In this document: positions 369 through 25,930 of the stretch, piece after piece
Numbering within the stretch: the first letter of the stretch is position 1
Layout of the letters: the number at the start of each line of letters is the position of its first letter
From: a virus
Length of the DNA: 27,565 bases
Strand: one strand, 5' to 3'
IMG/VR virus record: IMGVR_UViG_3300017969_000098
Coordinates: 1 to 27,565 of that record
Notes under the pieces: generated by a model
The model's input: only the letters and a program-made list of their open reading frames with translations
Database searches by the model: none
Told to the model about the DNA's origin: nothing
Translations under genes and position numbers: made by a program

Positions 369-376
369 TGAGTTTT

Positions 377-1062: not shown

Positions 1063-1828
1063 CATCAATTTCTCGCTCTGCTTTTTGTTTAATTTCCCAT
1101 TCCATTTGTCTAGTGTGTGAAGGCATCATTCCGTTTTCTTGTAAAATATCATCACGTAGAGCTTGATTTTTTTTCTCAACATTTAGAATGCGTGTAAATG
1201 AATTTGTTATTGCCGCTGTGTAATAAGCAAATGGATTGTCTGATTTAGATTCATCAAACTGTAGACCGATCTGACTCAACTGCATGAGTGCTTGTCCCTG
1301 CATTTCGTCATTGTAGGTGTAACCACGCCAGTTGCCTCTGGTGCCATATCTTTGTGTCAACAATAGAAACATTTTTGCTAGTTTGTTAGTCATCTTGCCA
1401 TGATCTACTGAAAATCGACCATTTTGCAGTCCGTCTTTCCAATGCGATTTTGCAACACACATCAATTCGTCTTGATCGTTATATCTCCAGTGTTGAAAAG
1501 GAGGAAAGTTAACTTTCATTTTAGAATCAGCAATAGTTTTTGGTTTTGCCTTTCTTGCAGAATTTGGTATGTGATCAAATGTCATGATTCTAAAAACAAC
1601 ATCATGTTTATCGAAGTTTTGTGGTTTGATTGTTTCTCCAGAACGTTTGCTCAGTCTTTTGGCTCGCTCTCTTTTTGCTTGTGCAACAGTGCGAATGTTG
1701 ATTTTGTCCACTGATGGTAGTATAAGATCATATTCTTTGTCTTCGTCTGTGAGAAAAGAACAGTATGTGGACTTTGACTTGTGTATTTCAGCCAACATGT
1801 CCTTGTTGTTAAGATAATTGACAGCCAT
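1043..1828 (-). CDS. 55: late-transcription sigma factor, gp55-like, with N-terminal extension
   Basis: A 261-residue protein. Residues about 118-220 align by eye with T4 gp55: an ELM...KDGL helix, then TQRYGTRGNWRGYT, EMQGQALMQ and FDESKSDNPFAYYTAAITNSF (188-211), matching T4's SGYT, QEMIADGI and [21 protein letters not shown]. This is the sigma region 2-like part that binds polymerase and recognises the TATAAATA box. T4 gp55 is 185 residues. Here an extra segment of about 115 residues precedes the core, is rich in Lys/Arg at 50-70, and itself begins with NNKDMLAEIHKSK. The C-terminus is highly charged and lacks the hydrophobic clamp-binding tail of T4 gp55. In T4 the protein works with gp33 and the sliding clamp gp45. 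A TTGCAT-N17-TATAAT promoter lies 7 nt upstream. The gene is divergent from gp48, whose late promoter it presumably activates. Confidence 0.85.
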   Translation of the reverse strand: MAVNYLNNKDMLAEIHKSKSTYCSFLTDEDKEYDLILPSVDKINIRTVAQAKRERAKRLSKRSGETIKPQNFDKHDVVFRIMTFDHIPNSARKAKPKTIADSKMKVNFPPFQHWRYNDQDELMCVAKSHWKDGLQNGRFSVDHGKMTNKLAKMFLLLTQRYGTRGNWRGYTYNDEMQGQALMQLSQIGLQFDESKSDNPFAYYTAAITNSFTRILNVEKKNQALRDDILQENGMMPSHTRQMEWEIKQKAEREIDAKSKKF

Positions 1829-1835
1829 GTATTGA

Positions 1836-1864
1836 ATTATAAACTATACAGTTAATTTATGCAA
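1836..1864 (-). promoter_or_regulatory. sigma70-like promoter of gp55
   Basis: Minus strand: TTGCAT (complement of 1859-1864), a 17-nt spacer, TATAAT (complement of 1836-1841), then 7 nt to the gp55 ATG. The arrangement is identical to that of gp47. The -35 shares two bases with the plus-strand late box of gp48 at 1863-1870, so the two promoters interlock. Confidence 0.55.
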
Positions 1865-1870
1865 TAAATA
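1863..1870 (+). promoter_or_regulatory. T4-type late promoter of gp48
   Basis: AATAAATA matches the T4/cyanophage late -10 box at seven of eight positions and stands exactly 6 nt before the ATG of gp48. No Shine-Dalgarno sequence lies between the box and the ATG. By T4 geometry the transcript would begin within one or two bases of the start codon. Confidence 0.75.
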
Positions 1871-1876
1871 TTTACA

Positions 1877-2758
1877 ATGGCATCTTTTTCGAACTTTTTA
1901 AACAAAGGATCTAATTTTTTAACCGGAGCAGCCGGTTCTATAGCCAATAGACTTGCACAAGCAGGTCTGCCAGTGGGTGGCATTTTTAATTCTAAAACGC
2001 AATCCAGTCTGCAATCAAATGTTGGAGCACCATCGTCAACAGGCGATTGGGCAGTTAAGGTTACTGTGTCAGATGCTGTGTTTAATGATTTGATGGCAGA
2101 TGCTCCTGTTTTTCCAGATTCGTTCAAAAAAGTAAAAGGCCTAAGATTTCCTGTGACACCATTTATCAACATGTCGCATTCTGCGGCTTATGATGCTCGG
2201 TCTGTCATACACAACAATTATCCTTATTATGCATACCAAAATTCGCAGGTTGATCAAATGACTATTGCAGGATCGTTTCCTGTGCAAAACAAAAATGATG
2301 GACTCAATTGGATAGCATCATTGCACTTTTTAAGAACTGTTACAAAAATGTATTATGGTGGAGGGAAAAATCAAGGCAATCCGCCACCAGTGTGTAGATT
2401 AAACGGATACGGAGATTATGTGTACAAAGATGTTCCTGTGGTTATCACAAACTTTACAGTTGAATTGAGAGAACAAGTTGATTACATTGGTGTTGATGTT
2501 CCTACTGGAGGTCGACCAGATGCTATTGCAGAGGCCCTCAATGGAACCGTTGATCCTGGATTGACAGCAGATGCTGGTTTTCTGCAAGGTTCTAATGTGA
2601 CCAGAGCAGTAGAAAGTTCTGGCTCAACAAACTATGTGCCAACAGATTCACTGATATCAATCACAGTGGTGCCAGTGTACTCGAGAAATAAAATTTCGAA
2701 TCAGTTTAATTTAAAAGATTTTGCTTCTGGTAAACTAACTGACAAAGGATTCATTTAA
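1877..2758 (+). CDS. 48: baseplate tail tube cap protein, gp48-like
   Basis: A 293-residue structural protein at the head of the baseplate operon. In T4-like phages gp48 and gp54 join the baseplate hub to the tail tube and start tube polymerisation. The sequence has an Ala/Gly-rich N-terminus (MASFSNFLNKGSNF), a central FPVTPFINMSHSAAYD and NNYPYYAYQNSQVDQMTI region (about residues 93-130), and a C-terminal SITVVPVYSRNKISNQFNL typical of this class, which resembles tube proteins. It is shorter than T4 gp48 (364). Position directly before gp53 and after gp55 supports gp48 over gp54; gp54 is usually not recognised in marine relatives. The start is fixed by the late promoter 6 nt upstream. It ends in TAATG, overlapping gp53 by one base. 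Confidence 0.72.
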   Translation: MASFSNFLNKGSNFLTGAAGSIANRLAQAGLPVGGIFNSKTQSSLQSNVGAPSSTGDWAVKVTVSDAVFNDLMADAPVFPDSFKKVKGLRFPVTPFINMSHSAAYDARSVIHNNYPYYAYQNSQVDQMTIAGSFPVQNKNDGLNWIASLHFLRTVTKMYYGGGKNQGNPPPVCRLNGYGDYVYKDVPVVITNFTVELREQVDYIGVDVPTGGRPDAIAEALNGTVDPGLTADAGFLQGSNVTRAVESSGSTNYVPTDSLISITVVPVYSRNKISNQFNLKDFASGKLTDKGFI

Positions 2759-3057
2759 TGGCACAATACGCAAAAACTTCTCCTTATTATTCTACTGGAC
2801 AAGGCACAGAAACTCTAGGGATCCTCAGCAAAAGATTGTTTGCCTTTGAAGCAGATGACATTTTGTATGAAATAGATTCATTTTATGAAAGACGTCCAGA
2901 TCTACTTGCACATGATCTTTATGGTTCTGCAAAATTATGGTGGGTATTCATGCACCGTAACATGGACACAATCACTGACCCGATATGGGATTTTGTTGCA
3001 GGCACACAGATTAAAATCCCTAAAAAAACAACACTTGAAAAATATTTAGGAATCTAA
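2758..3057 (+). CDS. 53: baseplate wedge protein gp53
   Basis: A 99-residue protein with the gp53 hallmarks: SPYYST near the start, an ILYEIDSFYERRPDLLAHDL segment, LWWVF (about 60-64), then DPIWDFVAGTQIKIP at 74-88, which resembles a LysM-like turn. gp53 clamps wedge subunits around the hub during baseplate assembly. It is about half the length of T4 gp53 (196), keeping the conserved core. The ATG shares a base with the gp48 stop, and AAGGA at 2745-2749 lies 8 nt upstream, so translation is coupled and Shine-Dalgarno driven. No separate promoter is seen. Confidence 0.85.
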   Translation: MAQYAKTSPYYSTGQGTETLGILSKRLFAFEADDILYEIDSFYERRPDLLAHDLYGSAKLWWVFMHRNMDTITDPIWDFVAGTQIKIPKKTTLEKYLGI

Positions 3058-3060
3058 AAG

Positions 3061-5349
3061 ATGACCATTAATAGACTTACTAATTTTAAGTCAGATGAAC
3101 TAGGATCTAAGTCAAACAAACAAAATACAATTGCTGATAATTCTTTTCTCAAGTTGCAAAGCGATCGCACAAAACCTGCAGATATACGTTTGGTTTTGGA
3201 TGACATGGATGAAATTGCAAAACGCAATAGCCTCATCGATCAAATAGGTGCACCCCAAACTAATTTTGCTTCATATGGTACAGGCCTTGCAAACGAATCA
3301 TCGTCCACTACAAATGTAGGTGCTTCTGTCACTCCTCCTAGATCAAATCCTCTACATGACTTTGAACCAGTCAATTACTTGATATCGCTCAGTGCTATCA
3401 GCAAAGACAATTTTAATTCTGGAGGGCAAGGACGGGAAATATTGATTGCTCGAAGTGGAGGCAAAGGCCCACAAGGTGAAGGTGTGCTAGGAAAAGACTA
3501 CTACATCGACAATCTTGTAATCCGAAACACAGTGTCTCCTACATCAGAAGGAAAGTCTGGCACAGTGTTTCAAATATTATTTGATGTGACAGAACCATAC
3601 GGCACTTCGTTTATTGATGCTTTGATAACCTCAGCCAACACACTGGGATTTGAAAATCATCTCAAAGCTGTCTACAAGTTAAAAGTTGAATTCAAAGGAG
3701 TCAATGATGACGGTGAACCATCTGGAGCACCGATTGATTATGCTACCAGAATAATCCCCATACACATCTACTCAGTGCAAATGAATGTTGCCGCCGGAGT
3801 GACCACATACAGTTTACAGTGTGTGCCAGCCACATATCTTGGTGTCACAGAATTGCACAGTGTTACACAGGAACAAATTACTGTCACAGGCGACACTGTA
3901 GGACAAGTGGTGACAGATTTCATGCAAAAATACAATGCAACATTAAAAACTCTAAAGAGTGAAAATAGGATACAAAATCCTGATGAATATGAATTGAGTA
4001 TATCTGAATCTGCAAAAGAAATAGTTGAATCAAAAATTCCTTATGATGCAAATTCCCGTTCGGCTAATATTATTAACATTTCGAACCAATTCGAAGGACC
4101 ACCAGGATATCAGGGACGGCGAGAGATCACAGTGCCTGCAAACACATCAATTCAAGCATTCATTGAAGCAGTGGTGCGAGAGAGCAATTTTTATAGACTA
4201 CAGTTTGATGCGAACGGTGATCCAAAAGATGATTTTTTAATGACATTAAGAACAAACACTAGATTAGAAATACTACAAGAAACTGGCGGAGGTGGAGGCA
4301 ACAGACCAGTCTATAAATTTATTTGGGTGTTGAGACCGCAAAAGGTAAGTGCTAGTTATGTAAACAAAGAAGCAGAAGATTTGGTCAGTAATGTTATTCC
4401 TGTGAGAACATACAATTATTTGTACACAGGACAAAACAAAGACATACTTGATTTTGATGTAACTTACAAATTTGGTTATTATCAGGCAATTCCATATTTT
4501 AAACGCACTGGAACCAACACAGAAAACGATGCATACTCTGGCGAAAACCCAGAAGAAACATCAAACGAAGACACCACAGGTCAACAGGGGTCTGGCACAT
4601 CACAAGTGACCACTGAAGCAATACGTCAACGCAAAGACGGATTCATTGCTGATTTAAACACAGAAAATGGCGAGGTCGCAACAATATTTGAACAAATCAT
4701 ACAAGACCCATCTGCAGACTTATTGGTTACTCAAATGGAAATTATTGGTGATCCCTGTTGGATAGAACAAAAAAGTGTGCTGAATGAGTCATATCAGAAT
4801 TCATATCTTGAAGGATCTCCTAACATAGATAGATTTGGAGCAGTAACAACTGACGAATATGAAGTTTATGTTAAAATACAATTCAAAACACCTACAGATT
4901 TAAATGATGAAACCGGTCTTTTCAACATTGATCAAGCGGCATTTTTTTCTGGAATATACAAAGTGTATATCTGTGAATCAAGATTTGCAGGCGGAATGTT
5001 TACAAATGTTTTACAAATGGTGAGAATGCGACATCAACCTACAGATAAAGAAATTTTTGACAACAGCAAAACAAAAACTTTTGTGGTAGACAGTCAAGAT
5101 GTGCAAGGAGGTAGCAAAGTCAACATAGATGAAATACTTTCTAATCTAGATGCTTTAGAAGACAACACCACAAGCAATGCTATCAAGTCACTGAACAAAA
5201 CACAAAAGTTGGCCTTTGATGTGCTGACAAGTAGAAATTATATTTTGAATCCTCTTTCTGAAGAAGAAGCTCTTGCTAGGGTAAAACAGCAATTCATTGA
5301 CAACAGATCTGCTGACACAAGACTACAAGATAGATTGGGTGACAACTAA
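3061..5349 (+). CDS. baseplate hub protein (gp27-like by position and C-terminal motif)
   Basis: A 762-residue protein of the hub type. Residues about 95-290 form a beta-rich region containing NYLISLSAIS and repeated FDVTEPYGTSFIDAL-like strands. A Gly-run loop (GGGGG near 411-415) and a polar low-complexity stretch (about 480-530, rich in Glu, Thr, Gln) follow. The C-terminal third has GDPCWI, then FFSGIYKVYICESRFAGGMF and LQMVRMRHQ. The pattern of SGxYxV...FxxGxFxxxLxxxR is characteristic of phage hub proteins of the gp27/gpD/gp44 class. Such proteins form the trimeric hub that holds the spike, and the next gene is the gp5 spike. T4 gp27 is only 391 residues, so this is nearly twice as long, and direct homology could not be shown by eye. 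AGGA at 3048-3051 lies 9 nt before the ATG. The stop overlaps the gp5 start by one base. Confidence 0.6.
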   Translation: MTINRLTNFKSDELGSKSNKQNTIADNSFLKLQSDRTKPADIRLVLDDMDEIAKRNSLIDQIGAPQTNFASYGTGLANESSSTTNVGASVTPPRSNPLHDFEPVNYLISLSAISKDNFNSGGQGREILIARSGGKGPQGEGVLGKDYYIDNLVIRNTVSPTSEGKSGTVFQILFDVTEPYGTSFIDALITSANTLGFENHLKAVYKLKVEFKGVNDDGEPSGAPIDYATRIIPIHIYSVQMNVAAGVTTYSLQCVPATYLGVTELHSVTQEQITVTGDTVGQVVTDFMQKYNATLKTLKSENRIQNPDEYELSISESAKEIVESKIPYDANSRSANIINISNQFEGPPGYQGRREITVPANTSIQAFIEAVVRESNFYRLQFDANGDPKDDFLMTLRTNTRLEILQETGGGGGNRPVYKFIWVLRPQKVSASYVNKEAEDLVSNVIPVRTYNYLYTGQNKDILDFDVTYKFGYYQAIPYFKRTGTNTENDAYSGENPEETSNEDTTGQQGSGTSQVTTEAIRQRKDGFIADLNTENGEVATIFEQIIQDPSADLLVTQMEIIGDPCWIEQKSVLNESYQNSYLEGSPNIDRFGAVTTDEYEVYVKIQFKTPTDLNDETGLFNIDQAAFFSGIYKVYICESRFAGGMFTNVLQMVRMRHQPTDKEIFDNSKTKTFVVDSQDVQGGSKVNIDEILSNLDALEDNTTSNAIKSLNKTQKLAFDVLTSRNYILNPLSEEEALARVKQQFIDNRSADTRLQDRLGDN

Positions 5350-6815
5350 TGGCAGAAAATAGAACCAAAAGAATCACAGACATAGAACAAGCCATCAAAC
5401 AGTTTCCTGGACCGTATGTTGGATATGTCAAAAACCCAACAGATGTTAATAGGATGGGAAGATTGTTTGTTCATATTCCAGAACTGCATGGCGAGTATGA
5501 TGAAACCAACAAACAGCAGTCTGCTCAAACTGTGCCATGTCAATACTGTTCACCATTTGCTGGGCAAACACCTTTAGGTGACACATCTCAAGATCCAAGA
5601 GAATTTGCCAACACTCAAAAATCATACGGGTTCTGGATGGTGCCACCAGACATCAACACCAAGGTGCTTGTTGTATTTGCAAATGGCAACACCAATCAAG
5701 CATATTGGATTGGTTGTGTGTTTGATGATTACATGAATCACATGACTCCGGGAGTAGCATCCTCTGACAGATTTGTAGGCAACAGTGATCAAAACTCAAG
5801 ATATTTTGATGAACTTGGTTTGAGCAAAGCACCTGTGGCTGAAGCACAACGGCGTGCAGAATCAAACAATGTGGCTAGAATCAACACCAAAGCCAGAGAA
5901 GATGTAGCATTTACAACTCGACCTATTCATGTGCCACAAACAGAAACGCTTGTAAATCAAGGATTGGTGTCTGATGATGTACGCGGTACAACAACATCAT
6001 CAGCAAGACGTGAAACACCTTCACAAGTGTTTGGAATATCAACACCAGGTCCAATTGATTTTGAAGGACAAAAAATTAACAAACGAGAATCAATCAACAG
6101 ACATGGCAAAATTTATAATAACTCATCTGATGAATTTGATTTTACTCGAGTGGCGCATTCACGCCTAGGCGGACATTCGTTTGTAATGGATGATGGAACT
6201 CCAAGGTTTAGAGAAGGCAACCAAGACAAGACAACTATTGAAAATGAATTGATTCGTTTGCGAACTCGTTCAGGTGCACAGGTCCTACTGCACAATTCCA
6301 AAGACGTTGTATACATTATTAATAATTCAGGCACTGCTTGGTTAGAATTCACGCAAGACGGTAAAATTGATATCTATGCAAAAGATTCTATTTCTGTTCA
6401 CACAGAAAACGACATGAATTTTAGAGCAGAACGTGACATCAATATTGAAGCAGGAAGGAATGTTAATTTAAAAGCAACTGGTGAAAACACTACAACTGGT
6501 CAAACCACAGGGCGTGTGCATGTAGATGCCGCAGGCAATTATGAATTGGTAGTTGGCACAGATGGTTTGATCAAAGCAGACGGCAGTATAAAGACATATG
6601 CAGGGACAGATTTTAATGTCAATACAGGTGAAGAAATACATTTTAACACAGATGGTAAGGTGTCTGCATCTGTTGTGTCTAGTTTATCAACTCATTCTAC
6701 TTCTTCAAAAACATCTATTCTAAAACGCATACCCACACAAGAACCGTGGGCAGATCATGAAGACAAAAAACGTGATGAAGTTACAGCAACACTGACAGAT
6801 AGGGAGCAATCATAA
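5349..6815 (+). CDS. 5: baseplate spike protein, gp5-like, no lysozyme domain visible
   Basis: A 488-residue cell-puncturing spike. Residues about 18-135 form an OB-fold (GPYVGYVKNPTDVNRMGRL, then PPDINTKVLVVFANGN and AYWIGCVFDDYMNHM). A polar linker runs to about 270. From GGHSFVMDDG the chain enters the beta-helix region: IRLRTRSGAQVLLHNS, AWLEFTQDGKIDIY, then short repeats such as DMNFRAERDINIEAGRNVNL. The C-terminus has PTQEPWADHE, also typical of gp5. T4 gp5 (575 residues) has a lysozyme domain between the OB-fold and helix; nothing like its catalytic Glu-Asp-Thr region is seen here, and the linker is too short for it. The trimer should sit on the hub (upstream gene) and carry the PAAR tip (downstream gene). 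Start and stop each overlap a neighbour by one base. The Shine-Dalgarno sequence is weak (GGGTGA, 5337-5342). Confidence 0.82.
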   Translation: MAENRTKRITDIEQAIKQFPGPYVGYVKNPTDVNRMGRLFVHIPELHGEYDETNKQQSAQTVPCQYCSPFAGQTPLGDTSQDPREFANTQKSYGFWMVPPDINTKVLVVFANGNTNQAYWIGCVFDDYMNHMTPGVASSDRFVGNSDQNSRYFDELGLSKAPVAEAQRRAESNNVARINTKAREDVAFTTRPIHVPQTETLVNQGLVSDDVRGTTTSSARRETPSQVFGISTPGPIDFEGQKINKRESINRHGKIYNNSSDEFDFTRVAHSRLGGHSFVMDDGTPRFREGNQDKTTIENELIRLRTRSGAQVLLHNSKDVVYIINNSGTAWLEFTQDGKIDIYAKDSISVHTENDMNFRAERDINIEAGRNVNLKATGENTTTGQTTGRVHVDAAGNYELVVGTDGLIKADGSIKTYAGTDFNVNTGEEIHFNTDGKVSASVVSSLSTHSTSSKTSILKRIPTQEPWADHEDKKRDEVTATLTDREQS

Positions 6816-7072
6816 TGCCAGGAGTTTGCAGAGATAACGACACAGCTGTTGGAGATCTTATTCCAAGTCAAACCACTGTGTACGCCAATGGTGAAGAAAT
6901 CATTGTTGATGGTGATTCTGTTGCCAATCACGGATTGCCTCCTCATGATGCACCTACTATGATAGCAGGATCCAACAATGTCTTTGTCGACAACAAGGCA
7001 GTGTGTAATGCAGGCGATCTTGCAACTTGTGGTGATGCAGCTACAGGTTCGGCCAATGTTTTTGTAGGTTAA
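6815..7072 (+). CDS. 5.4: PAAR-domain spike tip protein (T4 gp5.4-like)
   Basis: An 85-residue PAAR protein that should cap the gp5 beta-helix as a sharp metal-bound tip. It shows the PAAR pattern: an N-terminal MPGVCRDND, a strand pair around VYANGEEIIVDGD, HGLPPHDAPTM (39-49), SNNVFVDNKAVCNAGD (53-68) and a closing GSANVFVG. Candidate metal ligands are His39, His44, Cys64 and Cys72; which are used cannot be told. The length matches single-domain PAAR tips. AGGGAG at 6801-6806 lies 8 nt before the ATG, which overlaps the gp5 stop by one base. Its own stop codon lies inside the late promoter box of gp25. Confidence 0.88.
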   Translation: MPGVCRDNDTAVGDLIPSQTTVYANGEEIIVDGDSVANHGLPPHDAPTMIAGSNNVFVDNKAVCNAGDLATCGDAATGSANVFVG

Positions 7073-7075
7073 ATA
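7068..7075 (+). promoter_or_regulatory. degenerate T4-type late promoter of gp25
   Basis: GTTAAATA lies exactly 6 nt before the gp25 ATG, the same geometry as the other late boxes in the window. The last six bases match TATAAATA fully; the first two do not match. The box includes the TAA stop of the PAAR gene. A weak GTAGG is too far (13 nt) to be a good Shine-Dalgarno sequence. Confidence 0.45.
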
Positions 7076-7081
7076 TAAAAA

Positions 7082-7546
7082 ATGGCAGTTGTTACATACA
7101 AAGATCAAAAACGCACCAAGCGAACATCACAATCTTCACAGGTGTTCAAAGGGTTTTCAACACAAGGCAGAGAATTTCTTGACCCAAAATTGTATGATGT
7201 CGAGCTAGTCAAACAAGATCTTTTGAATCATTTCAACATTCGCAAAGGTGAAAAACTAGAAAATCCAGATTTTGGCACCAACATCTGGTTGTATTTGTTT
7301 GATCCACTAGATGATGACACAAAAAATGCTGTGATTCGTGATGTTGAAGAAGTGATCAATTATGATCCTCGTGTGACTTTGGATCAAATTGAAGTACAAG
7401 AAGCAGAGCAAGGTTTGTCTGTCAAAATGACAGTGTTGTACATTGGTTATGCAATTGGCGAAACCATCAATTTACTTTTTGATTCAGAACAAGGACTTTT
7501 ACAAGGTCCTGGACAATTTTTCAATTCATCAACAGCAAATTATTAA
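7082..7546 (+). CDS. 25: baseplate wedge protein gp25 (gpW/gp25 family)
   Basis: A 154-residue member of the gp25 family, part of the inner baseplate wedge and sheath-initiator core conserved in contractile injection systems. Diagnostic segments are DLLNHFNIRKGEKLENPDFG (about 44-63), IWLYLFDPLDDDT, then IRDVEEVINYDPRV and IGYAIGETINLLFD near the end. The KGEKLENPDFGT block with the following W/Y-L-FDP is the family signature. T4 gp25 is 132 residues; the extra length is an N-terminal basic segment (KDQKRTKRTSQ) and a C-terminal Gln/Gly tail. gp25 directly contacts gp6 and gp53, both encoded nearby. It starts 9 nt after the PAAR stop. Confidence 0.93.
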   Translation: MAVVTYKDQKRTKRTSQSSQVFKGFSTQGREFLDPKLYDVELVKQDLLNHFNIRKGEKLENPDFGTNIWLYLFDPLDDDTKNAVIRDVEEVINYDPRVTLDQIEVQEAEQGLSVKMTVLYIGYAIGETINLLFDSEQGLLQGPGQFFNSSTANY

Positions 7547-7565
7547 GTAGTCATATTTTGTTTAC

Positions 7566-7573
7566 AATAAATA
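7566..7573 (+). promoter_or_regulatory. T4-type late promoter of gp6
   Basis: AATAAATA stands exactly 6 nt before the gp6 ATG, in the 33-nt gap after gp25. It is the same octamer and spacing as at gp48, within a shared 12-nt stretch (TTTACAATAAAT is found here; gp48 has ATGCAATAAATA). No Shine-Dalgarno sequence follows. Confidence 0.75.
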
Positions 7574-7579
7574 TTCAAT

Positions 7580-10500
7580 ATGGCATCCAACACTAGACAG
7601 AACACTCTTTTGGCCAACACAGTGTGGCAAAAATTGTATAGAACTTTCAAACAAGCAGATTTTAAGTCATACGATTTTGACACCATTAGACGTACTCTCA
7701 TTGATTATCTGCAACTAAATTATCCAGAATCCTTCAACGACTTTATTGAATCATCAGAATATGTTGCACTCATTGATATGATTGCATATGTGGCACAGTC
7801 GATATCATACAGAGTTGATCTCAATGCCAGAGAAAACTTTATTGATCTTGCAGAAAGAAAAGAATCTGTACTGAGATTAGCAAGACTGATTTCATATCAA
7901 CCCAAGCGAAACACAGCAAGCTCTGGCTTTTTAAAAATTTTATCTGTCTCAACCACGCAGAATGTTTTAGATTCTAATGGTCAAAACATTGCAAACACTC
8001 CAATACTATGGAACGACTTGACCAATGACAATTGGCAAGATCAATTCAATGCTGTGCTTAATGCGGCACTGCCAAGAAACCAGTTTGTAAACAAACCTGA
8101 ATTGAGCGCCACCATTGCTGGCATTCCTTCACAATTGTATAGAATAAATGGTGCTAACCTTGATGTACCAATTGTACCATTTTCAAAAAATATCAACGGT
8201 GTGAACATGGACTTTGAAGTAGTGCCATGTTCATTTGCAAATCAAACATATGTGTATGAAGAATCGCCTATACCTGGAAACTCTATGACCATGTTGTATC
8301 GAAATGACAGCAGAGGATTTGGCTCCAACAACACAGGCTATTTTTTACATTTTAGACAAGGTGCATTAAATTCGCAAGATTTTACTATCACCAACACAGC
8401 ACCTAACACTGTGGTTTCTATCACTGAAAACAACATCAACAATGATGATGTATTTTTGTACAAACTAGATCAAAATGGCATCATTGATCAACGCTGGCAA
8501 AAGGTACCTGCAATTGTAGGCAACAATATAATTTACAATGAATTAGCAAATAACATAGTAAACCAATTTGCTGTGGTAACCAAAACAAATGATCAAGTTG
8601 ATCTTGTGTTTTCTGATGGTGTCTACGGCACTTTGCCACAAGGCAACTTTAGATGTTATTTTAGACAGAGCAATGGTTTAACATATAATGTAAATCCTGC
8701 TGATATGCAAAACATAGATATTTCGTTAGACTATGTCAGCAAAAATGGACAAGTAAACACACTAACAATTTCTGCAAGTTTACAAAGCACTGTAACAAAT
8801 GCATCACGATCACAGTCGATACAAGAAATCAAAACTCAAGCACCACAATCTTATTACACAAACAACAGAATGATTTCTGCAGAGGACTATCAAATACTAC
8901 CTTTGACTCAAAACCAATCAATTGCAAAAATCAAATCACAGGTAAGATCGGCATCTGGAATATCAAGATTTTTAGATGTAGTTGATCCAACAGGAGTCTA
9001 TTCGCCAGTGAATGTAGTGTCTGATGATGGATACTTGTATCAAGACGAAGGAACACAAACTTTTGATTTTCAATTTACCACAAGGGATGATGTTGAAAGA
9101 GTCATCAACAGCACTCTTGCTGATGTATTCACATCGCCGGCATTAAAGCAATATTACTATAAAAATTACGGAAGGATAACTCCACCCACAGGAGTTACTT
9201 GGAACAAGTCTACTCAAACCACAAATCAAGTCACAGGTTATTTTAAAGATTCTGGACCATTGAGTGTAGGAACATCTGTGACAACAAATCTACAATATGT
9301 TACTCAGGGTGCCTTGTGTAAGTTTGTACCTACATCTGGTTCTCATTTCATGCCACAATCTGGTACACAAATGACAGGTGCAGGCGGACATCCTGGATCA
9401 TCTGATGTAATATGGTCCAAAGTGGTATCAGTTGAGGGTGATGGCTCAAATGGTGGTCTTGGAAATCTAGCAGACGGTACAGGCCCAATTGTGTTGAATG
9501 ATCTTGTACCTGCATCAGCTGTGTTAGACGAAATTATACCAAATTTTGTTGATGACATCACAACAACACTTTCTAATGCAATTATTTCTAATGTGGTTGA
9601 ATATAATGATTTTGGATTGACATACAATGTAAACACTCAAACGTGGTCAATTATTTCACAAGATAATTTAGGAAGCGGCAGTTTTGATCTAAACCAACAA
9701 GGAGATACCAGCGGTAGTAATTTAGATAATTCGTGGTTAATAAAATTTGAAACTAATGGTGTAAGTTATACAGTGACTTATAGATCAACCGAATACACAT
9801 TCGAATCTGCCACACGCAACAAATTTTATTTTGATCCACAAGCAAAAATAGTAGATCCGCAAACAGGTGTTACTATTAAAGACAAAATTAGAATTCTAAA
9901 AAGTAACACAGGTCCTGATTTTACCACCAGCATCACATACAATTATGATTGGCAGATTGTAGGTAATGTTACTGGATCAGATGGATATAACGACACAAGA
10001 AAAATAAAAGTTGGATTTTTTGATTCAGATGATGACGGTGTGATTGACAATCCAGATCTATTCACAACTATAGTTGCACCACAAGATGATGTAACAAACA
10101 AATATGTGTTTTTTGAAACAGTGACGGTGAATGGTTTTGAACAGCAAAATGTTGTTGATCAAACAAACTTTTTTGTCACAGCACTAGAATCTGATATAAC
10201 TGATTTTTCATTGTACCCAGATGGTCAACTGTTTTATTTCTATTCCACAAACACCTTTGCAGAATATGACAGTACAACTGACACAACTTCAACACCTACA
10301 GTGTATTCTGCAAAACTAGGAAGACAAGATTTACTTTACAACTACAACCATGGAGCAAACAGAAACAGAAGAATAGATCCTGCTGTGTCTAACATTGTTG
10401 ATGTGTATGTGATGACCAAATCATATGATGAATCATTACGCACCTGGCTAAGAAACAATCAAGCAACCTCTAAACCTAGTGCACCAACAATTTTTGATCT

Positions 10501-11062
10501 TGAAAGCCAATATCTTGCTTCACTTGATGGAATCAAGTCTGTGAGTGATGAAGTAATATTCAATCCCGGTCAATACACTTTGTTATTTGGTCCAGGAGCA
10601 GATGCAAACCTACAAGCACAGTTTAAAGTTGTAAAAAATCCTTTGTCATCCGCAAGTGATAATCAAATTAAATCAAGTGTGATTGCAGCCATTGATGAAT
10701 ATTTTAGAATTGATTTTTGGGATTTTGGTGATACTTTTTATTTTACAGAATTGGCAGCTTATGTTCACAATCAACTTGCTCCAGACCTACTCAGTGTGGT
10801 CATAGTTCCTGCACAATCTACATCAGGCTTCGGTTCTTTGTTTCAAGTATTTGCTGACGACAATGAAATTTTTATTTCATCAGCAACTGTTGACAATGTT
10901 GAAATTATCAATTCACTTAGTGCAGAAAAATTAAAAGCAACTGGGACAGTGGTTACCAGTGCAGAAGTTACATCTACAGCGACTTCAGGTACAGTGGCAA
11001 CCACTAGCACTGCTTCGACTTCTAGTTCATCGACAGCATCGTCTAGTGGAGGCTACTACTAA
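7580..11062 (+). CDS. 6: baseplate wedge protein gp6, enlarged
   Basis: A 1160-residue protein recognised as gp6, which forms the wedge ring that links wedges and controls sheath contraction. The N-terminus carries the conserved block [20 protein letters not shown], then [34 protein letters not shown] and [10 protein letters not shown] (about 34-112). [11 protein letters not shown] near 430 is another family segment. The C-terminal domain has [20 protein letters not shown] (about 1050), as in T4 gp6. T4 gp6 is 660 residues; the excess is mainly a beta-rich insert of about 450 residues (roughly 520-980), including a Gly/Ser-rich loop and a [12 protein letters not shown] acidic turn near 815-825 that resembles a calcium loop. 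Residues 1121-1160 are almost purely Ser/Thr/Ala/Gly/Val. A late promoter fixes the start. The stop overlaps the giant gene by one base. Confidence 0.88.
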
Positions 11063-17000: not shown

Positions 17001-20000
17001 GCATGGTTTATCAGAAGATGACTACGTGGTTATAACAAGCACTGACGCATCAATCAATGGCATATATAAAGTCAAACTTACAGATAGCACTGATGATCTG
17101 AATACTTTCAGTGTAGATTTTACAGGTAATTTTGATAGCACAAACACTGTTGGGGTGATTTCTAAACTTACAAGCATCAGAATAAATTCTATTGACAACA
17201 TAGAGTCCATTACTCCAACAAAAGGATTTCAAATCGGAAACTATGTGTATGTTGATAACAATTACAATGAGCAATATCCTAACAATGGATTATGGAAAGT
17301 ATATCAAAAATCTGTTGATACAGATTATACCATAGGCGAGCAAACATTTAGTGACGAACTTTCTCAAGATGGTGAAACTGCCACAGCAATTGCTGTGTCT
17401 GACAACAATCTGTATCTAGGAGTAGGTGCTCCTGGATCTAACAAAGTATTTGTTTATTTGCGTGGTAACGTGACAGATGATTTTACACTTCGCAATGATA
17501 TTGAACTTGATATAGGCAACACAGCAAATGATGATAGATTTGGTGAAAGTTTAGCCATCACTACAGATGGAGCAAGACTTTTTGCAAGTTCGCCTGGAAC
17601 ATTTGACATTGTTAAATTGACACTCAGTGCAACAGCAAGAACTTATTCCCGTGGTACAACCATCACAGGAGCAAACAGTGGTGCCACTGGTACAATTTTA
17701 GACATAGATTGGGACAATGATATCATATGGGTAAAAAATACCGGCAATCAAGATTTCGAAGTAGAAACATTGGACATAGGTGATTCGTCATCGGTGTTGA
17801 GCATCACAGCAATACTAGGATCGGATTATGCATCACAAGGTGCAGTGCATTGGATCAACAGAGACGCAAGATTAAGTTTTGGCATCAATCAATCGATAAT
17901 TGCACCCAATGTTGACGCAGGAGGAGAATTTGGTAAAGCAATTGCTGTATCTGGTGATGGCACATACCTTGCTGTTGGAGCTCCAGGATCACCAGATGAT
18001 TCTGTAACCAATGATAGAGGTGCAGTGTTCATCTACAAATATGCCAAAGATGGTTCGTCTGCTAGATATGATCTTCACCAAACGCTGATTCCTTCATCAA
18101 ACAGTCAAGTTGATTCAAGATTTGGCGATAAAATTGCTTTTGCAGAAGATGGAAATACTTTGGCAATCTCTGCACCTTTGTATGATAATGACAGCACAAC
18201 TGCAAATGCAGGCACAGTTTATGTTTATAGATTAAAAAATGACACATTTTTTGAGCATGAAAAAATTGAACCAAATCTTATAGATGATGTGCAGTTTGGA
18301 AATGGAGTAGCTATCAGTGAAGATGGCACTGACTTACTAGTAGGTGCACCAAAATATACAGATGTATTAGGTGATCAAGGAGGAGTATTCCATTACATTC
18401 AAAACACATCTGAACATGTTGGAGATGGCAGTACAACTACATTTACTGTTGGTTTCAATATTGATCATTCAATACATTTGGGTGTTTTTGTAAACAACGA
18501 CAATCTTGTACAAAATGATGACAGTAGCACAGCACCATTTTACACACTAGATGGTTCTAGCAACACAATTACATTCGGCACCGCTCCTACTTCAAGTGCT
18601 GTGATTGTAATCAAACAATTTGCATTTGAAGAAATCATCACAGCACCAAAAATACAAAGCAATCAACAATTTGGTAATAATTTGTATGTCAAAGATAACA
18701 CTCTTTTAATCCAAAGCAACAAGGGTGACGCTGAATTATCTACAACATTTGACACTGTGACTGATGATGGGTCAACTGCTTTGTCTGGGACTACGTTTGA
18801 TAGATCAACAACAAGATTTATAGATCTGCAATTAGATAGTGGACAAGTTCATGTATACAATAAATTAGACACACAATTTAAGTATGTGCAAAATTTGCCT
18901 ACAAGTGTAAATTTACAGACTGGTGCAAATTATGGCGGTGCGTTAGCATTGTCTCAACTTTCTGCTTATATTGGTGCACCAAAACTTGATACTACACTGT
19001 CAAATAGTGGCAGACTGTTTGTGTTTGAAAAACCAACATCTGATTTAGGATGGAAAACTGCTTATACCCAACCTGATCTAGTTCGTTCAGCAAACATAAC
19101 CAACAGTTTCTTATACAACAAAGACACTGGAAAAACACTCACTCAACTAGCTTTAATCGATCCTGCCAAAGGAAGATTATTTGGCGAAGTACAAAAAGCC
19201 ATTTCTTATCAGACACCTTATGATCCAGCAAACTATTCATCATGGGATGACGATCATAATGGAGAAATTTGGTTAGACGTTTCAAAATTCAAATACATTT
19301 GGTATGAACAAGGATCACTAGATGAAAAATTGACAAATTGGGGCAAACTGCATCCAAGCAGTTCGGTTGAAGTTAATGTTTGGATTGAAAGTGATCTTAC
19401 ACCAACTCAATACAATGCTCTGTCAGGAACTAATGAAGGAGAAAGTCAAAATATAACAGGAACTGCAAAAACAAACTTTTTAACCAAAAGAGTTTTTGAT
19501 GCAAACAAATCAACATTTACAAACAAATATTTTTATTGGGTAACCAATAGAAAAACTGTTGACAGCAACAACAGTGTATCTGCTCAACAAGTTGCTAATG
19601 CAATACAAAATCCCGATTCGTTTGCAAACAATTATGGTGCTGTGGTTAGTAACAGAGCAGTGTTGTTAAATCTTGATCGTTCTCAATTAGAGCAAGATAG
19701 AATTATTTTTAAAATTGAAAATACAACTGACAATGAACAGCTACAAAAACACACTGAACATGTTTTAATATCAAAGGATGATGCAAATTCAGAAATTCCT
19801 CAACAACTTACTGATAAATTTTTTGATAGTCTTATTGGTTTTGATAATTTTGGTAGATCAGTACCGGATGTAACTCAACCAGAAGGATTAAGATATGGTT
19901 CGTTAAACAGACCAAGGCAGAGTTGGTACAAGGATAGATTAGGGGCTTTAAAAATTATTGTGCAATTTATAAACGATAATCTAACAAACAAGCCTTATGC

Positions 20001-23000
20001 CACAACAAAGGATTTAACAAAATTTTTAGAAAAATCAACACTGCCCAGTTTGACATTAGGTGAGTATGATAGATCTGTAGATACAGATGTTGATTTATTA
20101 TATGTTAATACAGATGAACTGAGTGCAGGGTATAAAATTTTAGTACTTGTTGATTCCAATGTTGCACAAGGTTGGTCAGTAAATGAATGGAGCGGGACTG
20201 CTTGGTCAAGAACATCGCAACAGACTTATGACACTGCGGATTATTGGGATTATGCTGATTGGTATGCTAATGGCTATTCTTCTAGTACAGTTGCCAATTA
20301 TATTGTTGCAGATGAAAGAGCAAGATTGAATGGAACTTACAATGTCAAAGATATTGTAAAAGTCCAGACATCATATGATGGTGAGTTTAGAATGTATGAA
20401 AAAACACCTTCTAGCTGGAAAGTGGTTGCTATACAAAATGGAACTATTCAACTATCAACAAAATTATATGATTATGTAAACAATCAAGTGGGTTTTGGAG
20501 CAGACGCATATGGTTCATCATTGTATGATGCTGAAGCAGTTACAGAATTAAGAAATATTTTAGAAGGTATAAAATCATGGGCTATTGATGAAGATGCTCT
20601 ATTGTTCAACAAATTATTTTTTATAGGTGTAAGAATTGCACAACAAGAACAAAAAGATATTGATTGGGTGTTCAAAACATCGTTTGTAAAACTTATAAAC
20701 ACATATTCAAATCTAGAACAATTGCGTGAGTTCCAGATCGATTCTTCTGATGCTGTGCAAAAGTTTTTAGATGAAGTTCTACCATTCAAAACAAATGTGC
20801 GAGAAGACATTACATTATACAACAATCAAGATGTTTTTGAAGGTGACATCACAGATTTTGACAATAAAACTTATTTTGACAAAACCATACAAGAATACAT
20901 CACTCCAACTCTACGTCAAGATGATTCATCATATCCTGATGTGTACAGTAAAAATCCATGGAAATTGTACGCAGACAACTTTAAATTTGTAATAGATTCT
21001 ATTGTTGTTGATCGTGGTGGATCAGGATACACAGAACCACCAAGAGTTGTCATATCAGGTGGTGGCGGCACCGGTGCTACAGCAACAGCAAGTATAGGAG
21101 ACGGAAAAGTTACACGGATAACAGTTACTAATAAAGGGTCGGGTTATTACACAACACCAACAGTTACACTACAAGGCGGAGGAGGTAGCACTGTGACTAC
21201 AGTTGCACTTGCTCATGCAGAACTCGGAAACGGAAAAGTTAGATCAATAGATTCGCAAATAAAGTTTGATCGTGTGAACACTCTAAAAGAAATCAATAGT
21301 TCTAACATTTTAGAATGGGCACCCTTTACATCTTATTCGATAGGTGACAATGTCAGATATCTAAATGAAATATATAGAGTGCAAGAATCATTTACAAGTG
21401 GCAAGACTTTTGACGACAATGCGATTTTATCTGATTCTTCTTCGGTAACAAACACAAGTCCTATTACAAGATGGACAGCTACAGATAGAATTGCAAGTTT
21501 CTATTCACCAACAACTGGTATGGCAGGACTAATTGGTGATGGCTCAACTACAATTAATGCTTATTCTCAACTAATGACTGGGATAGAATATCCAGGAGTA
21601 AAAGTTTCAGGCTTATCGTTTGCTTCGTCAACTGGTTATGATTTAACAGGATTTGATTTAGTGCAATACGACACAAATATTATTGTTACAGAGGATAGCG
21701 ATCCAGAAAATTTAGATCAAGTACTAGATTCAAAAACATTTACTACTGAACTAGGTATTAGAGCAGAAGATATTAATGTAGTTGGCGATGCTTTTATTTC
21801 GGAATATTCAGCTCATGCACCAGAAGAGGTGTTGCCAGGTGGAGTGTATGACACCATGGATCTCAAGGTGTACACAAAACAAACTGACGGTGCCTCAACT
21901 GTAAGCAAAAAAAATTATTATGGTGATGGTAGCACAGTTAACTATGCAACTCCATCTTTATCTGCTGTTGATGGCTTGCGTGTATTCAAAAACAATCTAT
22001 TCCAAAGAAGAGGTATTGAATATACGCTTGATTATCCCAATAAAACTATACAATTTGCAATTGCTCCTAGTTCAGGGGATATTATTTCTATCACCGCAAT
22101 CCGAGTAGCTACAGACAATTTGATAGGCAAGTTTGAGTTTACTGCTACAGATAGTTCTAATACATTTGAGTCAAAAATAAATTTTGATCTAATCACACAA
22201 CAATATGTTTTGGTCAATGGAATCAAACAGACTGTATCTTTGCAACTTAATGCTGATGGAGTGACAGCAGATGTAAAATTTACTCAAGCACCTGCTGTGG
22301 GTGATCAAGTGCAGGTATACCTATTTGATTTACCTTCTGGAACAAAAGCGTTCAGCGAAGTGGTTACCACACAATATGACAATATTCAAACTGATTCAAC
22401 TGAATTTGTTATTCAATTAGATCCTGTGTCTTTAATAACAGGACCTCATCATCACAAAGTTATAGTTGAAGGAGTCAGTGGTGCTGACAAATCAAATCGA
22501 TACAGGCTGCAACCACCTCAGATTGCTTATTATTTGGGAGATGGTTCAACAGTTGATTTTGTTGTGCCTAACGAACCAGTTGAGTCAGCTACTGCTGACA
22601 TCACAAACACAGAAGTTTGGAAAAATGGAATCCAACTTGTGGGTGTATCAGACTTTTCAATGAGCACTACTTTAGGTGGTGATAGATCGGTGGCTTTGAC
22701 AACTGCTCCAGCAGATGGCGATGTAGTTGCTATTGTTTACAAATCTGGTCATGATTATGAACTTGATGCTAGTGGAAAATTAGTTTTACAGGCAGGATGG
22801 AACGGCGATTCTAGCATAGATGCTGAGAGTGTGTTTGTAACAACATTTTCTAATCATGACACACAATCATTGAGAACTGAAGTATTTGCAGGTTCAACAG
22901 GTGCTCTTGCTGTGAATAGATTAAATTATGGTGGAGTGGTTGACTCTATTGATAACACAGAAGATTTTGGTGATCTTGGCGCTCTTGATCAACCAAATGA

Positions 23001-23889
23001 AGATTTTGGTTTTACTGATGGTAACATCTTTGTTGTAGACATACAGTCTAAAAGGTATAGACTGAGTGCTACACCAGTCAATGAAAGTTATGTATTTGTA
23101 GCAGTGAACAAAGAATACCTCACAGCAAATCATGATTTTATTTTGGAAGGCAATGAGATTGTGTTACCTAATAGAAATTTAGGTGTAAATGATGTAATCA
23201 CCATTACATATGTTGCTGGTGGTGTGTCTAAACCTGCGATTGCTTATAGAGTTTTCAAAGACATCATCAACAGATATCACTACAAAAGAATCAGCACAGC
23301 ACATTCCACATATCTATCATCTGATGTGAATATAAGTGATACCGAAATCACAGTGAGTGATGCAAGTGCATTAGGTGATCCAGACACTGATGCTAATAAT
23401 CCAGGTGTTGTGTTCATAGGCACAGAAAGAATTGCATATTTTGAAAAAGATGGCAACACACTGCGTAGGTTATTCAGAGGCACGCTCGGCACTGCAATTC
23501 AACAACACACAAGAAATGCCAAAGTTGTTGATGCCAGCGGAATTCAAACAATGCCATATCAAGACACTACCACAACAACTACATTTACTGGCGACGGAAG
23601 CACAGTGTCATTTGCGTTAGATTATGTTCCGTCAAACAAAGACCAAGTGCTTGTATTTGTTGGAGGTGAAAATATCAAAACATTTAGTGTTGGAAGTGAT
23701 TCTAGTTCAGCAGTAATTTTAGACACAGCACCTGCATCAGGGGTTCAAATCAACATCATAAGGAAAACAGGTTCAGTGTGGTACAATCAAGGTGCGACCA
23801 CAGGTGCTGACGGACAAGGACTTCAACAATCTACAAATATAAATGTGGCGTTTCTGCAAGACAAATCAGCAGATCTAAGTCTAATTTAA
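11062..23889 (+). CDS. giant multidomain virion structural protein (gp7/gp8 position)
   Basis: A single 4275-residue frame with no interruption. The first 140 residues ([39 protein letters not shown]) look like a conserved baseplate-attached N-terminus. In order, I see an amicyanin-like cupredoxin domain (155-262), a long unrecognised region with [15 protein letters not shown] near 1140, CBM5/12-like modules (1424-1466, 1682-1723), a probable seven-bladed FG-GAP propeller (2104-2657), an unrecognised region, a GSGY repeat (3314-3397), a third CBM-like module (3417-3455), and GDGST modules (starts at 2454, 3492, 3621, 3826, 4177). It directly follows gp6, where T4 encodes gp7 (1032 residues) and gp8, neither recognised elsewhere here. 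It is therefore likely a peripheral baseplate or adhesion protein on the virion. No signal peptide or membrane segment. TGGAGG at 11047-11052 lies 9 nt before the ATG, which overlaps the gp6 stop. Its role is inferred from position and domains only. Confidence 0.7.
11524..11847 (+). other. amicyanin-like cupredoxin domain within the giant protein
   Basis: Residues about 155-262. APGHPFYI supplies His196; the C-terminal strand [10 protein letters not shown] gives Cys248, His251 and Met254, followed by KGRIII. A distant His and then Cys-x2-His-x2-Met is the type 1 copper ligand pattern, with the short loop spacing of amicyanin. Copper binding itself is inferred. Confidence 0.6.
15331..15459 (+). 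other. CBM5/12-like module 1 in the giant protein
   Basis: Residues 1424-1466. W1426, Y1432, then [15 protein letters not shown] and a closing W1462 follow the pattern W-x5-Y-x2-G-x-x-V-x4-G-x-x-Y...W of chitin-binding CBM5/12 modules. Ligand unknown. Confidence 0.5.
16105..16230 (+). other. CBM5/12-like module 2 in the giant protein
   Basis: Residues 1682-1723. W1684, Y1690, [15 protein letters not shown] and W1720 repeat the module 1 pattern with clearer agreement to the family. Confidence 0.55.
17371..19032 (+). repeat. FG-GAP-type beta-propeller repeats in the giant protein (apparent seven blades)
   Basis: Seven repeats between residues 2104 and 2657 share the pattern FG-x-x-x-A-x-x-x-DG-x-x-L-x-V-G-A-P, then GxVYVY. 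FG (or YG) pairs are at 2160, 2290, 2354, 2412, 2537 and 2624; the first blade keeps only the VGAPGS half (2121-2126). The calcium loop of integrin FG-GAP repeats is reduced to a lone DG, as in the FG-GAP_2 type. Two inserts break the series: about 2186-2285 and a GDGST module at about 2454-2520. Confidence 0.65.
21001..21252 (+). repeat. GSGY glycine-rich duplicated repeat in the giant protein
   Basis: Residues 3314-3397. Two half-repeats, [20 protein letters not shown] and [18 protein letters not shown], separated by a [12 protein letters not shown] strand. The second is followed by GNGKVRSI. The pattern resembles short beta repeats common in phage fibres. Confidence 0.6.
21310..21426 (+). 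other. CBM5/12-like module 3 in the giant protein
   Basis: Residues 3417-3455. W3419, Y3425, [14 protein letters not shown] follow the same pattern as modules 1 and 2, but the closing Trp is not at the expected place, so this copy is the most degenerate. Confidence 0.45.
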
Positions 23890-25199
23890 ATTTTTATAAA
23901 AATAATTCTAGGATGAGTTTGATCATCATCAACAAGTGATCTGCCTATCACAGCAAATGGGTTAGGAGTGTCTGAGGCAACTGCATGGCCTGGAGTATTA
24001 GAAGTAACCAAAAGATCACCTTTTCTTACAGAACCTACCACTTTGCATTCAACTTTGCCTTTGAGTGCAATAGCTGGTCCGTCTTCTTGTTGATTCATTA
24101 GATAGGCCCATTTTTCACTCACTACGCCTGCAATTTTTGTATCATTTTCTACAGTGGACTGTGTAATTTCATGAGTGCCACCGTGTATCATCACATGGCC
24201 TACATCGTAGGTTGCATCTGCTGAGTATTTTTCTGCCAAGTCAGCGTACTGTGCCTGTGATGCTGTGGTTGATAAAATATTTGTAGATGGATTATATGAT
24301 AATCCTGTGTCGGTCTCAATGCCTTGTGTGCCTGTGGCACCATCGACAAAAGTGATATAAACAGTTTCATCAGTGGTATTGTTGGCTGTAACTGTGACAT
24401 TGGTTGCTTCTGTGGCAACTGCAGAAGTTCCTGTAGAAACAGCGTTGTCAACATATGCTTTTACTGATTGTTGAGTGGGTATCAAAGTAGCTGAATCTGA
24501 AGCCATGTTGTCTTCATCAACAAAAGCAGTGATGGTTATTGTACCATCTGAAATTGATCCATATTGTACAGTGCCAGTGGCAGTGATATTTCTTAAACTT
24601 GCAATATCAATGTTACTGTCAGCAACTAAAGCTTTGTTTGCGGCAGCTGTTCCATTAGTGATGCCATCTAATTTTTCTAAATCAGTCTCGTTCATATCAG
24701 CAGATCCGATTATAAATGAGCCTGTGGCAGTGATGTTTCCACCGGATGTCACAGCACCTGAAATTGACATTGCTCCGTCAACACTGACTGTGCCTGAATC
24801 TTCTGATCTTAACACACCAGCTAGGTTTATATCATCGTTTATTGTAATAGCTGTAGAATCACTAGATGAAAGAGTGTTAGCAGTCAAATCAGAATTTGTA
24901 GCAATAATAACTGTGCCTGCTGAATCTGTAGATGTATTGATGTTAGTACCACCAGCGAATCGCAATGTTTCAGTTCCGTCGGCTGTGACAGTCAAAGTTG
25001 CACTGTCATCTGCAACAAAATCTATGCTGAATGTTGAAGGAATTTCAGAATATTTTGCTATCCTTATACCACCAGCAGTTGCTCCGTCATGCACTCTGAT
25101 TGTATCAAGAGTAGTGTCAACAGTTACTTCGCCAATAGCTCCTGTGAATGAAGTGTGTTCGGCTGTAGTTCCTCTTCTAAACTGTACTTGTGTTGCCAT
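23886..25199 (-). CDS. tail fibre-like protein with Mtd-type N-terminus, inverted
   Basis: A 437-residue fibre-like protein. Residues 1-50 ([20 protein letters not shown], then VHDGATAGG) match the short attachment domain seen at the start of many fibres, including the major tropism determinant. The middle is Ser/Thr/Asp-rich shaft sequence with [23 protein letters not shown] and [14 protein letters not shown], both recurrent in marine phage fibres. The C-terminal domain (about 315-437) begins [19 protein letters not shown] and ends RIIFIKI; it recurs at fibre ends and may serve as a trimerisation or chaperone-like tip, which is inference. It is the only structural gene on the minus strand, has its own late promoter, and its stop overlaps the giant gene stop (23886-23889). 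Several sampled 60-nt lines are G+C-richer (up to 31 of 60) than sampled lines of the giant gene (14-25 of 60). It could be host-range related. Confidence 0.75.
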
Positions 25200-25206
25200 G
25201 TGTTAG

Positions 25207-25214
25207 TATTTATA
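25207..25214 (-). promoter_or_regulatory. T4-type late promoter of the inverted fibre gene
   Basis: The complement of 25207-25214 is a perfect TATAAATA, 7 nt before the ATG of the minus-strand fibre gene. No Shine-Dalgarno sequence lies between. It faces away from the box at 25247-25254. Confidence 0.8.
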
Positions 25215-25246
25215 GTCATCAAATATGTACTGCTATATTTGTTCAG

Positions 25247-25254
25247 TATAAATA
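25247..25254 (+). promoter_or_regulatory. T4-type late promoter of the 216-residue gene
   Basis: A perfect TATAAATA followed by GATGAT and the ATG at 25261, so the 6-nt spacing seen at gp48, gp25 and gp6 is kept. No Shine-Dalgarno sequence is present. Confidence 0.8.
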
Positions 25255-25260
25255 GATGAT

Positions 25261-25911
25261 ATGACTGATTCAACACAAGATAATCAAACACAAACAACAG
25301 TTAAACCTGATGAACAGCAGGGTATAAACATTGAAGGTTATATTAAAATCTTTGATCCAGACTCAGGTGATGTTTATGTAGACAAAAAGAATGCAATACA
25401 TTATGAAAATTTTTCTGAAGCACTTGCAAAATCTATAGCAAACAGATCAACAGGCTTCATTGAAGAAATGCACTTTGGAAATGGTGGTACTTCTGTAGAT
25501 AACACAGGTATCATAACATATCTTACACCAAATACCACAGGTGCAAATGCAAATTTATATAACAGAACTTATTACAAAAGTGTAAATGATCAATCATCAC
25601 TAAACACAGATACAACAAGAAACAAAATTACAATTGCACACACAGATGGAACAACCTATACTGACTGTATAATATCTTGTCTGTTAGACTTCGGTGAGCC
25701 AGCAGGTCAACAAGCGTTTGACAACACAACCACAGTGAATGACACATATGTGTTTGATGAAATTGGACTGTTTTCATGGGAAGGCACAGCAGGCGCAGGC
25801 AATCTATTGACACATGTGATATTCCATCCTGTGCAAAAATCGTTGAATAGATTGATACAAATAGACTATACCATAAGGATTCAAAGTTTGACAAACTTTG
25901 TTGATGTTTAA
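25261..25911 (+). CDS. unrecognised virion structural-type protein
   Basis: A 216-residue protein that I do not recognise as a T4 gene product. The first 20 residues are polar (Gln/Thr-rich, no membrane or signal segment). Next comes IEGYIKIFDPDSGDVYVDKKN (24-44), then an AIHYENFSEALAKSIANRS helix and the FGNGGTSVDNTGIITYL turn (about 76-92). The end, FHPVQKSLNRLIQIDYTIRIQS, reads as beta strands. The composition (Asn, Thr, Asp, Gly) matches neighbouring structural proteins. It does not resemble T4 gp8 or gp9, although a wedge or fibre-connector role would fit its place between two fibre genes. It has its own perfect late promoter, so late expression is likely. The start at 25261 is set by the promoter spacing; an ATG at 25256 is out of frame. 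Confidence 0.72.
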   Translation: MTDSTQDNQTQTTVKPDEQQGINIEGYIKIFDPDSGDVYVDKKNAIHYENFSEALAKSIANRSTGFIEEMHFGNGGTSVDNTGIITYLTPNTTGANANLYNRTYYKSVNDQSSLNTDTTRNKITIAHTDGTTYTDCIISCLLDFGEPAGQQAFDNTTTVNDTYVFDEIGLFSWEGTAGAGNLLTHVIFHPVQKSLNRLIQIDYTIRIQSLTNFVDV

Positions 25912-25916
25912 GGAGC

Positions 25917-25924
25917 GGTAAATA
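25917..25924 (+). promoter_or_regulatory. degenerate T4-type late promoter of the right-hand fibre gene
   Basis: GGTAAATA keeps the TAAATA core and the 6-nt gap to the ATG at 25931. A GGAG at 25912-25915 is 15 nt from the ATG, too far for an ordinary Shine-Dalgarno sequence. It could be a weak late promoter, or the gene could be read from the promoter at 25247. Confidence 0.4.
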
Positions 25925-25930
25925 TAACAC

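Follow-up and report, generated by a model that had tools for sequence, protein, structure and literature searches.

How does a phage late gene mark its start codon when the promoter lies almost against it? The question is raised by the window analysed here, a 27.6-kb virus contig taken over its whole length. Among cultured phages, its nearest relatives are jumbo phages like PA5oct, Phosso, Atu_ph07, RaK2 and CBB. We searched both strands for the T4-type late box as the hexamer TAAATA. Ten copies occur, against 26.5 expected from shuffles (both strands), a roughly 2.7-fold depletion. More than half of these ten are positioned at a start codon, and the hexamer is depleted elsewhere. An earlier note on this DNA had described five plus-strand genes with an octamer ending in TAAATA exactly 6 nt before the ATG, and both positions and octamers were verified. 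TAAATA-N6-ATG is found on the plus strand at 1865, 7070, 7568, 25249, and 25919; the expected number is 0.61, and none of 100 shuffles reaches five. The sixth box, reported for an inverted fibre gene, is likewise present: it occupies 25207-25212 on the minus strand and is separated by 7 nt from the fibre ATG (25199). Called genes begin at each of the six ATGs and encode gp48-like, gp25, and gp6 proteins, a phrog_11259 protein, and two fibre-like proteins.

The late genes carry a TATAAATA-like octamer upstream, in which the TAAATA core is fixed by the search and the first two bases are variable. On the plus strand, AATAAATA-N6-ATG at 1863..1879 precedes the gp48-like tail-tube-cap gene (1877-2758), and the box lies at 5-6 nt in all 10 orthologs that are at least 60% identical. 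The gp25 gene (7082-7546) follows GTTAAATA-N6-ATG at 7068..7084 (plus strand), with a box at 4-8 nt in 28 of 30 orthologs; the TAA of this box also terminates the reading frame of the PAAR gene upstream. A second AATAAATA-N6-ATG at 7566..7582 (plus strand) serves gp6 (7580-11062), where 24/24 orthologs at least 60% identical have the box at 5-6 nt. Near the right end, TATAAATA-N7-ATG at 25197..25214 on the minus strand belongs to the inverted fibre gene (23886-25199), which is divergent from the gene at 25261. The latter, a 216-aa gene of the virion region (25261-25911, phrog_11259), has TATAAATA-N6-ATG at 25247..25263 (plus strand; 11/12 orthologs at 4-8 nt). The right-hand fibre-like gene (25931 to the end) has GGTAAATA-N6-ATG at 25917..25933 (plus strand; 7/9 orthologs at 6 nt). 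The operon-internal genes for gp53, a 762-aa protein, gp5, and PAAR (2758..7072, plus strand) start at or adjoining the preceding stop. Three of these four have a Shine-Dalgarno (SD) sequence, or four of five when the giant gene starting at 11062 is counted. That giant virion protein gene (phrog_10938, 11062-23889) has 4275 codons and takes up nearly half of the contig.

Late transcription in T4 is textbook knowledge. In the T4 late octamer the first base is at -13 and the end at -6, so that +1 is the sixth base after the octamer (PMC2988020). Because the T4 octamer ends at -6, spacings of 5, 6, and 7 nt predict leaders of 0, 1, and 2 nt. The earlier suggestion that transcripts start no more than one or two bases from the ATG agrees with this numbering; the T4 box position given there needed a small correction to a span of -13 to -6, by which 6 nt would give a 1-nt leader and 5 nt none. 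Among the 46 boxes at 6 nt, only 24 have a purine where T4 position +1 would be, so the exact start may be the A of the ATG or may vary by one base. A start at the ATG would leave the mRNA of the first gene without room for an SD.

We consider it very probable that the TAAATA boxes are gp55-type late promoters placed for a start at, or 1-2 nt before, the ATG, with leaderless first genes and a coexisting SD-led class of abundant proteins. In the proposed mechanism the phage's own gp55-like sigma, acting on host RNA polymerase, would read the TAAATA late promoters, and transcription would begin with the A of the start codon or 1-2 nt upstream of it. For the first gene of a unit, translation would then be initiated without a leader, at an AUG forming the 5' end of the mRNA, and the downstream genes of the operon would use ordinary SD or coupled starts. 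Sigma70-type promoters would have been given the same geometry in a clade-wide design. Two classes would thus coexist, one leaderless and encoding low-copy proteins, the other with SD leaders for the major capsid, sheath, tube, and scaffold core.

A candidate for the reader of the boxes is encoded in the window itself. The gp55-like late sigma factor gene (1043..1828, minus strand) matches phrog_12791 (E 1e-78) and phrog_234 (E 6.6e-24), and its product is 44% identical to the PA5oct late sigma, the maximum among cultured relatives; it is presumed to read the late boxes. TAAATA boxes at 5-9 nt lack a conserved -35 element, with TTG at -35 in 8%, against 76% for TATAAT. A T4-type gp45 clamp (PF09116) was found neither in the incomplete fragments G001-G005 nor in complete PA5oct; the same search gave matches in T4 and HTVC008M. 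The window's own late sigma goes beyond the earlier note, as do the sigma70-type copies of the geometry, the SD class, and the cultured case of HTVC008M described below.

Relatives were gathered via gp6, gp55, capsid, tube, and gp48, and fourteen related contigs were read; the contigs of the close clade are fragments. We counted spacings over 611 kb of close relatives, relative to the ATG of open reading frames of at least 60 codons, and used fourteen control hexamers matched in composition for the expectation. The distribution of spacings in relatives, set beforehand as a test that could refute the idea, peaks at 6 nt: the range of 4-8 nt before an ATG holds 79 boxes, against 6.5 expected, with 46 at 6, 18 at 5, and 8 at 7 nt. 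These counts and the ortholog counts are drawn from related sequences and are not independent. A further 22 boxes at 9-16 nt (5.9 expected) fit neither class neatly. The close clade has 206 copies of TAAATA, against 805 for the mean control hexamer, a depletion that suggests selection against stray boxes. The relatedness of the sequences lends something to the reading that the spacing descends from a small number of ancestral promoters in AT-rich sequence, without functional constraint. We regard that as very improbable, since spacer length is kept while the letters diverge (10 distinct spacers among 10 u216 genes, 11 among 22 gp6 genes), a box close to the ATG is shared by many unrelated gene families, HTVC008M from another family has it at 5 nt, and control hexamers have no such pattern.

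Where the box is close, the ribosome-binding site is absent. None of 75 genes with the box at 4-8 nt has an SD between box and ATG, compared with 14 of 23 whose box is at least 17 nt away (Fisher 3e-11, ignoring relatedness). In the usual window, SD sequences are found for 13% of the leaderless class, its own background being 15%, and for 39% of operon-internal genes. Among the six late-box genes of the contig, the sole SD-like motif is an AAGGAG of the right-hand fibre-like gene, upstream of the late box and 15 nt from the ATG. At N6 spacing the start codon is ATG in 48 cases, and GTG and TTG are absent among the eight commonest codons listed. A position just before the ATG would also fit a translation signal, AU-rich and S1-type or Kozak-like, carried on a longer mRNA with no promoter involved, and gp25, gp6, and the right fibre do sit downstream of co-directional genes, so that leadered read-through mRNAs could exist as well. 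We nevertheless think a translation signal improbable. In the same genomes the same hexamer stands at least 21-24 nt upstream of the SD-led core, sheath, and tube genes, which is the T4 layout, and operon-internal genes do without a box at 4-8 nt (gp53 0/70, giant gene 0/40). In the tube-like family an intrinsic terminator directly before the box (57/65) cuts off the upstream mRNA, and upstream transcripts therefore should not supply a leader there. As a general feature, an upstream terminator was discarded, being found for this one family and a few single genes only.

Host-type sigma70 -35/-10 pairs with the same spacing also argue against a translation signal and for promoters set against start codons. 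In the close-clade contigs, TATAAT lies 5-9 nt from an ATG 42 times (10.7 expected), with a peak at 6-8 nt. A TTG -35 accompanies 76% of these, in most cases 17 nt away; for TATAAT elsewhere the share is 17%. None of the 42 has an SD. Two such promoters are in the window, both on the minus strand. That of the gp55 gene (1826..1864) consists of TTGCAT at 1859-1864, N17, TATAAT at 1836-1841, N7, and the ATG at 1826-1828; its predicted leader is about 1 nt, and the layout is the same, with no SD, in six close contigs. That of an SbcD-like gene (366..405) consists of TTGCAT at 400-405, N17, TATAAT at 377-382, N8, and the ATG at 366-368, with a predicted leader of about 2 nt, and is conserved in four close contigs. 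From this layout, the gp55-like and SbcD-like genes are predicted to be leaderless as well. No excess of TATAAT near the ATG was seen in HTVC008M, T4, or PA5oct, and contig G027 has some (11 vs 4.6). Since sigma70-type promoters share the geometry, we take it to be a general design of the clade and not a property of gp55. The sigma70-type copies also bear on whether the boxes are late promoters with start sites farther upstream or downstream than in T4, which would make the mRNAs not leaderless. The start positions are indeed taken over from T4 numbering, and the gp55 is at most 44% identical to those of cultured relatives. Such a shift is nonetheless unlikely: transcription beginning within the gene would remove the N-terminus, which is conserved, and the late and sigma70-type promoters, though unrelated, both predict a start at the ATG.

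Promoters set against the start codon are not a general property of T4-like phages. In T4, Syn9, PA5oct, Phosso, Atu_ph07, and CBB the excess of boxes is found chiefly at distances of 17-30 nt, and an SD often intervenes; there is no excess at 4-8 nt, and these phages were rejected as carriers of the close spacing. P-SSM2 was rejected too, with an excess at 17-30 nt and only a slight one at 4-8 nt (6 vs 2.6), and the pattern is weak in Mosig (10 vs 5.4) and Melnitz (4 vs 2.1). The cultured Pelagibacter phage HTVC008M has 12 late boxes at exactly 5 nt (16 at 4-8 nt, 4.1 expected) and no excess at 17-30 nt. These 12 match independently annotated CDS starts, including gp2, gp4, gp48, gp25, gp3, and the tape measure, and the capsid, sheath, and tube genes have SDs. 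As HTVC008M is in a different family, its geometry is read, from this placement, as a parallel origin. More broadly, we give about even chances to a scenario in which a clade of the T4 superfamily rebuilt both sigma70- and gp55-type promoters, leaving the promoter alone to define the start codon and the presence or absence of an SD leader to set protein dose, with low-copy virion parts leaderless and high-copy ones SD-led. In this scenario the late design had a separate origin in Pelagibacter phages and may be an adaptation to hosts with efficient translation of leaderless mRNA. A phage bS21 was considered as an enabling factor and set aside: it is present in the leadered PA5oct, Phosso, and Atu_ph07 and was not found in the incomplete close-clade contigs. 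A gp6 relative was sought in bacterial genomes to identify the host, and none was found.

Orthologous genes switch between the two layouts. Among gp6 orthologs less than 60% identical, 0/39 have a box at 5-6 nt, 33 have one at 13 nt or more, and 28 have an SD. The gp6 N-termini align across this switch, and the start codon is thus the same. Orthologs of Ad2, neck, and v533 in Phosso have an SD with boxes 18-32 nt away, as do Ad2 and neck in Atu_ph07 and PA5oct; the Ad2 and v533 boxes of contig G018 are at 5 nt. The leaderless layout is held by close orthologs of the terminase (32/33) and neck382 (6/6), as by those of gp48 (10/10) and gp25 (28/30), and by the tube-like gene in 5/5 close and 60/63 distant orthologs. 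The genes for core (18/18), sheath (10/10), tube (63/63), and major capsid (82/87) carry an SD and are free of boxes at 4-8 nt. Abundant proteins therefore keep SD leaders, and the leaderless genes encode proteins expected at low copy, such as baseplate, terminase, neck, and fibre proteins. It may be that leader class sets protein dose; the leaderless tube-like gene is a case against a firm link to copy number. A gp48 ortholog (contig G004, 5359) is an exception within the leaderless clade, with a 16-nt spacing and AGGAG between box and ATG. In 34 tube loci the sequence TAAATAGGAG has its box at 10 nt merging directly with the SD; if T4 geometry holds, the SD would then form the 5' terminus of the mRNA or not be part of it. 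Given the overlap, these boxes were left out of the leaderless count. The leaderless late mRNAs proposed in the earlier note, a mode of translation that we infer as well, are strongly supported by spacing, absence of SD, ATG starts, ortholog switching, terminators, and short divergent regions. The proposal is incomplete, since the geometry is not late-only, occurring with sigma70-type promoters too, is not universal, as abundant virion proteins keep SD leaders, and extends to the cultured HTVC008M.

The boxes resemble T4 late promoters (gp55/gp33/gp45; PMC2988020, PMC7892883) in their TAAATA core, the lack of a -35, the phage gp55-like sigma, and the late structural genes downstream. They differ in that in T4 a distance of 17-30 nt between box and ATG predominates and an SD often lies within it, whereas many boxes of the window clade are at 5-7 nt with no SD, and the first two octamer bases are looser. 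In bacteria, TA-led leaderless genes are recognised by a -10-like element some 10-12 bp ahead of their start codon (PMC3160421). The likeness extends to a -10-type element at a fixed 5-9 nt, above chance, with no SD and an AUG start. Those genes, however, are on bacterial chromosomes with sigma70-like signals, whereas the window clade has a phage-encoded sigma and a split by gene class within one phage. The late promoters of phiKZ (PMC7598289) also have an element, 5'-TATG-3', at the transcription start itself, but they belong to another lineage and mechanism, with a phage multisubunit RNA polymerase and +1 at the G of TATG instead of the A of ATG. Lambda cI (PMC9031893) is likewise a phage mRNA translated without a leader; it is a single repressor gene, unlike the genome-wide late programme of the window clade. 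Among open-licence papers we found no report of T4-type late promoters fused to start codons.

With this finding, start sites and gene starts can be predicted in many marine phages that are uncultured. Methods made for cyanophages did not find late promoters in pelagimyophages (PMC7029224), and close placement of box and ATG may help explain that failed search. Orthologous genes that gain or lose a leader offer a natural experiment, and the prediction is directly testable in culture with HTVC008M on Pelagibacter HTCC1062.

Intergenic regions are correspondingly short where divergent genes have one box each. The two ATGs are 29 nt apart in G001, 26 nt in HTVC008M, and 27 and 36 nt at two places in G027; in the window, the fibre pair (ATGs at 25199 and 25261) has 61 nt between its divergent ATGs. 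The HTVC008M case, at 18916-18943, is the gp2/gp4 pair, whose two late boxes stand head-to-head only 4 bp apart. Boxes on opposite strands also meet in TAAATATTTA at 1865-1874, a palindrome with one box per strand. Its minus-strand box, 40 nt from the gp55 start, could by its position act as a second, late, leadered promoter for the gp55 gene.
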